This document shows, piece after piece, positions 38,818 to 40,221 of a stretch of 45,859 bases of DNA. The position numbers were made by a program, and so were the translations under genes. Each line of letters starts with the position of its first letter. The first letter of the stretch is position 1. The notes under the pieces were generated by a model. The model was not told where the DNA came from. It was given only the letters and a program-made list of their open reading frames with translations, and made no database searches. The stretch comes from K189A clade bacterium (GTDB lineage Bacteria; Pseudomonadota; Gammaproteobacteria; Pseudomonadales; Azotimanducaceae), in contig CABZTD010000015.1 in assembly GCA_902528515.1 (NCBI GenBank), positions 1 through 45,859 of the forward strand, read 5' to 3'.

Positions 38818-39876
38818 TTATAGAGTGTTCTTCGCCCCTAGAAACCGATCTATGCCGAGTGTTTGGCGTACGCCTTCTGTCGCGATCCGCATAGGCTCAT
38901 CAAGCGGTATACCTGTGGCATCCGCTGTGCGCACTAGGCCATTAAAGATGGCAACGATGGCGGACGCCTCTGAAAACGCTTCGACTCCGATAGATCCAAC
39001 CAGGGTGTTTCTTGTATCCTCAATGTTGTGATCTCCCCGAGTCACTGCTTCGGCAAAAGCGACCAATGCTTCTCCATGTTCGACTAGTTCAGCTCCATGG
39101 CCGCCCATAGTTGCCTGAACTTCTACATCTTGGTCAACCGCCTTACTGCTTGCACGAAGCAGCATGACATGAGCGCTAGTTCAGTAGAAACACTCATTAA
39201 CTGATGACACCCTTGCTGCGAGCAGTTCTGCTTGAGGACGCGATAGAGGGCCATCCCAGACCATGTCATTAAAGCCGCCACCCTTACCAACATACATGCT
39301 GCTAACGTTCTGCATGAAAAGGGCGTTTGCTGCAGGCACTAGACTTAGCGCTCTGGAGACGTTGGGTCCATCCCATGGGTCGACCATCTGCAGATATCCC
39401 CCTATATCCGTCGCATTGTCCGATTTGACCCCTGAACAGGAGCCACCCGTGGCCTTGGGCAACATCTCCCTGGGCCGTCCTAAAGCTTCCGAGAATGCGT
39501 CAACCGCACTAACGGAAGCAACGATGGCGACTAACTCCGCGTAGGGACCGTCGCCAATCGACGCGATCTGCTTTTTAGCCCATAAGCGATCGATTTTACC
39601 CGCGTCGGCGGCGACTTTTCTGACCGTTTCAAGAGTATCCCGATTGAGCCTAGAGTCGGGATAGGATCGATTGAAAGGTAAGTCACTGCGTTGCGAACGA
39701 GCCGTTCTTGCTTGCTTTGCGATCTCGAGACGATCAACGTCCGACCAAAAACTTCCTGCAGAAGCAATAGCCTTCCATGTCTGACGATGCGCATCGACAA
39801 TATCCTGTCTTACATAGGCTGCTTGCAGACCCCAACTTTCCTCACTTTCCCCTGCGTAATTGAAAGTTTCGGTCAT
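38818..39876 (-). CDS. Probable selenoprotein, AhpD/carboxymuconolactone decarboxylase-like, with in-frame UGA (Sec232)
   Basis: Read through the single in-frame TGA at 39181-39183, this is a 352-residue protein from ATG 39876, which has GAGGAG about 12 bases upstream. Without read-through it breaks into 231- and 115-residue pieces. The TGA falls in NECFY-U-TSAHVML, so the AhpD redox motif C-x-x-C-x-x-x-H becomes Cys229-x-x-Sec232-x-x-x-His236. Sequence on both sides is family-like: YAELVAIVASVSAVDAFSEA before it and FNGLVRTADATGIPLDE after it. A SECIS-like hairpin follows directly. AhpD-fold proteins reduce peroxides or serve as thiol redox carriers, and Sec would sharpen this activity. The alternative is a nonsense-mutated gene, but the exact position at a redox Cys argues against it. 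Confidence 0.85.
39140..39168 (-). promoter_or_regulatory. Candidate bacterial SECIS element
   Basis: Reading the minus strand downstream of the TGA, GTCATGCTGCTT (39168-39157) pairs with AAGCAGTAAGGC (39151-39140). That is eleven of twelve positions, with one A-A mismatch and two G-U pairs, around the 5-base loop CGTGC. The loop starts 24 bases after the TGA and has a G in its first two positions. The bacterial SECIS model asks for an apical loop about 16-37 bases after the UGA with an early loop G, and this fits. It would recruit SelB with Sec-tRNA. Confidence 0.75.
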
Positions 39877-40221
39877 CGGTCTTTCTCGCTCCTCGCCGGC
39901 TTTATCGGTATTGCGTACGGGCAGATGTGGATTCATGCATCCGCAAAAACTCTAGCGCAACATTCCTGGTCCAGACAATCCCGCGTGATTGAAAATTGGC
40001 TCTGAAGAAAACCTCTAAAAAAATTAGCAACGTCGGCAAGCGAAGCTCTTTTTGATTCATCGCTATTTTATTAGGCGAGTTGTGCCTGCTTTTTTGGAAG
40101 CTTGAGGCATAGGTTTCACGTCATTACTCTATTAGCTTGAACTCTAGGCTGACCACCTTGTGGCAGTACGTGATTGAAAGAAGACGATCACGGAATTATG
40201 GGATCATTAGACGGATAAGAT
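39877..40221. other. Divergent intergenic region
   Basis: About 345 bases between the selenoprotein gene (minus) and the SDR gene (plus). It should hold both promoters. It includes the right-hand copy of the 14-base direct repeat. No clear operator or promoter boxes. Confidence 0.4.

Follow-up and report, generated by a model that had tools for sequence, protein, structure and literature searches.

A gene with an in-frame UGA in a K189A clade bacterium very likely encodes a selenoprotein of the AhpD-related family NF041238

The stretch of DNA analyzed here, hereafter the window, comprises 45,859 nucleotides from a K189A clade bacterium (contig CABZTD010000015.1 of assembly GCA_902528515.1), and on its minus strand (38818..39876) it carries a putative selenoprotein gene of 352 codons, which runs from an ATG at 39876-39874 to a TAA at 38820-38818. 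The start was placed according to the alignment of relatives, another in-frame ATG at 39936 being a possible alternative. With TGA read as selenocysteine (U), the frame yields 352 residues and contains exactly one TGA (39183-39181, minus strand), at residue 232; without read-through, the mechanical open reading frames of the region encode 251 and 115 amino acids. The original prediction, in which the strand was unstated, had placed a single TGA at residue 232, together with Cys229 and His236, and all of these positions are correct in the minus-strand frame. The local sequence reads VSSVNE-C229-F-Y-U232-T-S-A-H236 and the site motif extends upstream to a glutamate (E217-x11-C229-F-Y231-U232-T-S-A-H236). 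The codon of Cys229, the presumed resolving partner of Sec232, lies at 39190..39192, and those of Glu217 and His236, both presumed proton relays, at 39226..39228 and 39169..39171, all on the minus strand. The protein is composed of two parts, a C-terminal AhpD/CMD half bearing the CxxU site (residues about 172-350; 38827..39363, minus strand), delimited by Pfam CMD, by a match to TIGR01926 below its cut-off and by the structure model, and an N-terminal helical half (residues about 24-132; 39481..39807, minus strand), which on the basis of the model, a half-versus-half comparison and the CxxC count is apparently a degenerate AhpD-like domain devoid of CxxC.

The window protein matches the NCBIfam family NF041238 (AhpD_rel_CFYUT, "alkylhydroperoxidase-related (seleno)protein") with 286.4 bits against a cut-off of 175, from residue 22 to 345 and over positions 1-355 of the 357 of the profile, and the family motif CFY[U/C]T is present as CFYUTSAH. 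The match thus covers both sides of the TGA, in agreement with the two family-like halves that had been described around it, and the proposal of an AhpD-like selenoprotein is supported by a family that is itself catalogued as (seleno)protein. Pfam CMD (PF02627) is found at residues 204-243 with 30.7 bits (gathering cut-off 23), while the peroxidase-related enzyme model TIGR01926 (46.2 bits, residues 208-320) falls below its cut-off of 81.8 and the AhpD core domain TIGR00778 (27.2 bits) just below its cut-off of 27.8. The family was first described in 2005 in the Sargasso Sea selenoproteome as hypothetical protein 1, which had a CXXU motif and was represented by four Sec sequences; a SECIS was predicted for it and functional evidence was lacking (PMC1088965). 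In a 2026 review NF041238 appears as "AhpD-related protein (hypothetical protein 1, Sargasso Sea metagenome)", with CxxU and one Sec (PMC13188914). The latter was the only source in which a search of literature full text found the accession NF041238, and the accessible portions of later selenoprotein reviews give no function for the family. The family has therefore been known since 2005 and the window gene is a further, somewhat stripped-down member: it shares with NF041238 and the Sargasso protein the whole length, the CFYUT motif, one Sec at CxxU and a SECIS-like hairpin after the UGA, but the clade to which it belongs (9 rows, on a long stem branch) is devoid of the N-terminal CxxC found in 95 of 116 rows. 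The same genome also encodes an ordinary peroxidase-related protein with CFYC (L063:1889-2452, G000:C5; TIGR01926, 213 bits). In a relative, an AhpD-like frame that is likewise interrupted by TGA at CxxU (L064, G031:C127; CVYUTDAH) scores below the cut-offs of both NF041238 (51 of 175) and TIGR01926 (65 of 82), and is possibly a further AhpD-like selenoprotein.

The model of the window protein, built from a 50-row alignment, is mainly helical (mean pLDDT 94.7, pTM 0.94), and that of L078, a relative with the N-terminal CxxC, reached a mean pLDDT of 93.8 and a pTM of 0.93. A Foldseek search of the PDB with the window model placed at the top the AhpD-like peroxidase-related proteins 2prr (YP_296737.1), 6k40, 2oyo and 3c1l, followed by Bmp8; the listed probability is 1.00, but the E-values, with a best of 0.0034 and none as low as 0.001, are weak, and the matches span about half of the model. 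A sequence profile matched 6k40 (E 6.6e-15) and 2oyo (E 1.9e-13) to the C-terminal half. The catalytic set described for YP_296737.1 consists of Glu74, Cys86, Tyr88, Cys89 and His93 (PMC4674687), and its spacing (Glu-x11-Cys-x-Tyr-Cys/Sec-x3-His) is that of Glu217, Cys229, Tyr231, Sec232 and His236, with Glu217 standing 12 residues before Cys229, as Glu74 before Cys86. Two alignments of relatives, A1 (26 rows) and A2 (50 rows), show no variation at Glu217, Cys229, the Sec position or His236, and Tyr231 is invariant in A1 and present in at least 90% of A2. The C-terminal half shares with the peroxidase-related proteins (TIGR01926; 2prr, 6k40, 2oyo, 3c1l) the helix-turn-helix site and the Glu-x11-Cys-x-Tyr-Cys-x3-His spacing, whereas those proteins comprise about 190 amino acids and use Cys, in contrast to the 352 amino acids and the Sec of the window protein.

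By analogy with AhpD and YP_296737.1, Sec232 and Cys229 would act as redox partners in an AhpD-like active site: upon activation via Glu217, Tyr231 and His236, the selenol of Sec232 would reduce a hydroperoxide, most likely an organic one, Cys229 would resolve the oxidized Sec232 to give a selenenylsulfide, and some cellular dithiol donor may re-reduce the latter. The catalysis, the substrate, the electron donor and the use of the second half are inferred, and a thiol/selenol hydroperoxide reductase catalyzing a peroxidase reaction has, in our view, about an even chance of being the right description. A lesser though still considerable chance is left to a real selenoprotein of the family with a different reaction, for instance a reductive dehalogenation, which is the mechanism of Bmp8, or a dithiol-disulfide exchange with a partner protein. 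Bmp8, known as a debrominase from its PDB titles (6ohi, 6ohj), has the AhpD-like fold and appears among the structural matches at ranks 11-13 for the window model and 10 and 12 for the L078 model, and the N-terminal half also matches it weakly by sequence (E 0.28); nevertheless, the peroxidase-related proteins rank above it structurally, and the site residues and their spacing are those of the peroxidase-related proteins. No oxidative-stress genes are found among the near neighbors of the window gene, which encode two CoA-transferases III, an SDR, an EthD protein, an alpha/beta hydrolase, an amidase and an MFS-type protein, a context that speaks for the other reaction. The CoA-transferase pair also occurs beside the L065 copy, and CoA-transferase matches, mostly short, are found in Chloroflexota loci; among 50 hand-picked neighbor proteins of the loci MFS_1 was detected in four and no other family in more than three. 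As no neighbor family recurs in more than four of these proteins, the genomic context does not name the substrate.

In order to follow the TGA among relatives, 58 genomes (the window's own and 57 relatives) were searched together with 14 control genomes. NF041238 was found over its cut-off in 30 of the 58 and in none of the 14 controls, the 47 match rows corresponding to 46 genes, one of them split over two frames; in G030, a family copy (G030:C346:19209-20268, L060) is split in this manner. Of the 46 genes, 45, the window's own included, have TGA as the site codon and one (L056) has TGC; L064, being below the family cut-off, was left out of this count. In a second set, formed by the 80 loci from named genomes that are the best of 385 relatives by likeness to the window protein and hence not a random sample, the codon is TGA in 80/80; for L090, L091, L105 and L118 the row used is the tandem neighbor of the match, and the matched copy also has TGA. 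Pooling gave 125 rows (117 distinct), some loci being the same records in both sets (e.g. L065, L058), with 124 TGA and one TGC. The TGA had been expected at the second Cys of C-x-x-C-x-x-x-H, and the homologous rows, with Sec in 124/125 and Cys in 1/125 at this place and similarity on both sides, came out in favor. The A1 alignment joins the window to 25 of the other 45 genes, and A2 and A3, of 50 rows each, join it to 49 of 79 loci, all hand-picked; L059 and L060, which have no N-terminal part, enter neither the tree nor the 116 rows scored for the N-terminal CxxC.

According to their record titles, the relatives belong to Gammaproteobacteria, Alphaproteobacteria, Myxococcota or Deltaproteobacteria, Chloroflexota or Dehalococcoidia, Acidimicrobiia, Binatia and others. 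In a class-wide sample of 274 genomes searched at E 1e-40 the family was found in the window's own genome only, with no further Cys forms, and its distribution is thus patchy. The sole Cys form seen, L056 (G030:C41:9762-10808; CFYCSASH, TGC), sits on a long branch in a genome that also has Sec copies. A second CFY-TGA copy flanks the first in 10 of the 79 loci (L069, L070, L077, L090, L091, L105, L106, L118, L120 and L128), and in L090 the two copies are tandem neighbors in the same direction. The branch of the window mixes copies of the same genus with copies titled Myxococcota or bacterium TMED88 (L069-L072; 50-53% identity where measured, L069-L071), which suggests transfer between phyla.

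The frame remains under constraint beyond the TGA, where coding character had been noted over 120 residues. Between the window gene and L058 (78% identity) dN/dS is 0.14 over the 231 codons before the TGA and 0.11 over the 113 after it; against five other relatives synonymous sites are saturated, with pN/pS of 0.25-0.44 before and 0.30-0.51 after. Immediately downstream of the UGA, a hairpin resembling a bacterial SECIS is found (39144..39164, minus strand; 8 pairs, loop CGUGC, 24 nt between UGA and loop). The bSECIS criteria given in PMC13188914 (legend to Fig. 2) are a loop of 3-9 nt, a stem of 4-16 bp, a G in the first two loop places, a distance of 16-37 nt from the UGA and an energy of at most -7.5 kcal/mol, and the window hairpin lies within all of them, with a loop of 5 nt, G in second place, 8 pairs, 24 nt and -8.8 kcal/mol for the 23-nt hairpin. 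A search of the window with Rfam returned no matches, and when the 63 nt that follow the UGA were shuffled, 154 of 200 shuffles folded as well as the native sequence, which thus shows no excess stability. Random synonymous recoding of the window gene would produce the four core pairs in 6.2% of cases, and it is therefore from the comparison across rows that the case for a SECIS draws its strength. Among the 116 distinct UGA rows, the four core pairs beside the loop are all formed in 111 and a G occupies one of the first three loop places in all 116; the loop-adjacent pair 27-33, which joins two third codon positions, is C-G in 105 rows, U-A in 8, U-G in 3 and mismatched in none. Taken alone, the 23-nt hairpin reaches -7.5 kcal/mol in 64 of these rows and stays above in 52. 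In a position-wise codon-shuffle test, run after the negative 63-nt energy test, the five-pair score of 533.5 out of 580 compares with a mean of 521.2 (sd 1.2) after synonymous codons have been exchanged between the sequences within each column (0/2000 as high), a procedure that treats the rows as independent though they are related, and with 225 (sd 13.5) when synonymous codons are freely drawn (0/500 as high). In the Cys gene L056 three of the four core pairs are kept by letters, the loop-adjacent pair is lost (A-G) and the predicted fold differs. As judged by this comparison of sequences, the SECIS-like hairpin is kept beyond what the protein constrains.

No tRNAs are encoded within the window, the sel genes being located on other contigs of the genome (2.13 Mb, 89 contigs, 75% complete). 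The presence of selA, selB, selC and selD, proposed beforehand as a check, was borne out for all four in the same genome: selA (C7:47657-48949, 524 bits) and selB (C7:49011-50837, 381 bits) are over their cut-offs, as is tRNA-Sec (selC; C7:53851-53939, 73.1 bits against 47), and selD forms the C-terminal part of a 747-amino-acid fusion with a pyridine nucleotide-disulfide oxidoreductase (L062:750-2993, G000:C16; 258-261 bits against 125). A second look at the stretch of C7 itself reproduced selA, selB and tRNA-Sec, and the independent call of ARAGORN (tRNA-SeC, anticodon tca) supports the tRNA-Sec. The fusion scores 468 bits with the 'fusion_not_SelD' model, below its cut-off of 700, and Ndh-SelD fusions have been described from marine metagenomes in the GOS paper (PMC2398784). 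Directly behind the tRNA-Sec (L061:8851-8943) lies a phage-type integrase gene (Arm-DNA-bind_3, Phage_integrase; L061:9089-10333, G000:C7), and perhaps an element has integrated at selC. Matches over the cut-off in the 14 controls amount to one for selA, two for selB, two for selD and five for tRNA-Sec, and 40 of the 58 genomes have a selD match above the cut-off; consequently, tRNA-Sec and selD alone say little. Counting as sel-positive any genome with selA at any listed E-value, or with selB or tRNA-Sec over the cut-off, and after removing by hand the tRNA-Sec match of G042 (49.9 bits against 47), which has neither selA nor selB over the cut-off, 25 of the 58 genomes have both family and sel genes, 5 the family only, 9 sel genes only and 19 neither, so that the two are associated (Fisher p 1.4e-4, kinship ignored). 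In the 21 genomes outside the genus the corresponding numbers are 2, 0, 2 and 17 (p 0.029, kinship ignored), and within the genus (37 genomes) they are 23, 5, 7 and 2, with no association (Fisher p 1.0, kinship ignored). The 5 of 30 family-bearing genomes with no selA match and neither selB nor tRNA-Sec above the cut-off are G010, G013, G015, G031 and G033; G010 is 96% complete with about 520 contigs and G031 90% complete with about 390, while the completeness of the other three is 58-73%. As selA, selB and selC lie close together in the window genome, the loss of one contig could account for each of these cases.

The match to NF041238 on both sides of the TGA and the retention of the TGA in homologues mean that the in-frame TGA is not due to chance, and the apparent stop in the 352-residue frame almost certainly encodes selenocysteine in a redox enzyme. 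We put at roughly 93% the probability that the gene encodes a selenoprotein of the known family NF041238, a reading supported computationally by family, codon conservation, hairpin, machinery and fold. Judging from the conservation, the hairpin and the machinery, the hairpin immediately downstream of the UGA would guide SelB to insert selenocysteine at residue 232. That the UGA is instead a true stop separating two proteins, the second initiated at the ATG at 39165, is very improbable: open reading frames of 251 and 115 amino acids do exist, but such a cut would split the active site between Cys229 and His236, the only homologue with a sense codon at this place (L056) has Cys and reads on, and the hairpin would be purposeless, and this reading was rejected on these grounds. 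Still more improbable is a pseudogene, in which the TGA would have arisen in a Cys gene through a nonsense mutation or a sequencing error. The window genome is a draft of 89 contigs, and in the close relative G024 a further TAA interrupts the copy L032/L067 (G024:C95) 20 codons past the Sec codon; the same TGA is nevertheless found in 124/125 homologous rows from several phyla, selection after it is purifying and the hairpin is kept, and it was on the conserved TGA that this explanation was rejected. The L032/L067 copy itself is either decaying or affected by an error; L067, with its TGA and extra TAA, is absent from the 125 pooled rows and from the hairpin, tree and CxxC tables, its counterpart L032 being kept, cut at its TAA. 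An organism-wide reassignment of UGA, e.g. to Trp, for which no supporting evidence was found, is equally far-fetched and was rejected given the tRNA-Sec, SelA and SelB and the Cys at this place in Sec-free relatives (L056 and the protein in L063), to which the first stop after the site (TGA 50, TAG 44 and TAA 30 in 126 rows, duplicates and L064 included and two running off the stretch) adds a weak argument that presupposes TGA as stop.

When the N- and C-terminal parts of the alignment are compared as profiles, 124 columns align and the N-terminal CxxC falls on CxxU (P 0.00084, with a probability of only 23.8%), which is suggestive of a second, degenerate AhpD-like half. The N-terminal CxxC, which precedes RKxALSP, is found in 95 of the 116 rows covering it, two rows have CxxT, and it is absent from the window's clade of 9, from 8 Chloroflexota and from L093; L139 was also scored as absent by column, maybe through an alignment slip. 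A quick tree requires no fewer than 4 changes of the CxxC label, and in it the clade of the window, composed of 5 same-genus copies and 4 titled Myxococcota or bacterium TMED88, forms one branch (SH-aLRT 100), the joining of L093 to it being flagged as a long-branch risk. By this comparison, the clade has lost the second cysteine pair that most relatives bear and would work with one site only. In the portions of the literature on the family that were available, no mention of the second CxxC or of its loss was found.

Two AhpD-like halves in one chain, one of them with a redox site, are a feature of the Sestrins that the window protein may share. Sestrin2 is twofold pseudo-symmetric, but its redox site is N-terminal (PMC4674687), in contrast to the C-terminal site found here, and the likeness considered is a structural one. 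The L078 model aligns with Sestrin2 (9lvj_U) over 350 columns including gaps (TM 0.45/0.52, probability 0.75, E 0.89), and no Sestrin is present among the best 50 of the 403 structural matches of the window model. A likeness to Sestrins has been discussed for fused AhpD pairs of bacteria, in some of which one half is free of cysteine, and E. coli YciW likewise has two AhpD-like domains (PMC11429811). The model GroundWater_YciW (NF053654, YciW-related (seleno)protein) matches 2 of the 50 members of A2 (best E 0.00043), but not the window protein at E up to 1. We may speculate, although it is rather unlikely, that NF041238 comprises bacterial Sestrin-shaped fused AhpD pairs in which the N-terminal CxxC is a built-in relay or a second catalytic center for the Cys-Sec site, and that this relay was lost in the clade of the window and, separately, in the Chloroflexota clade, leaving the selenium site to operate alone with a reductant from outside. 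If true, the family would offer a natural before-and-after pair for a fused AhpD dimer turning one half into a non-redox domain.

Beyond the original prediction, the analysis adds that the family was already catalogued, that a SECIS-like hairpin follows the TGA and that the N-terminal half looks like a degenerate AhpD-like half. The window gene is very likely whole and not broken, in an organism equipped to use selenocysteine, and a gene caller that treats the TGA as a stop would split the enzyme right at its active site. The second CxxC, kept by most of the family members compared here and lost in several lineages, provides a testable handle on the roles of the two halves.
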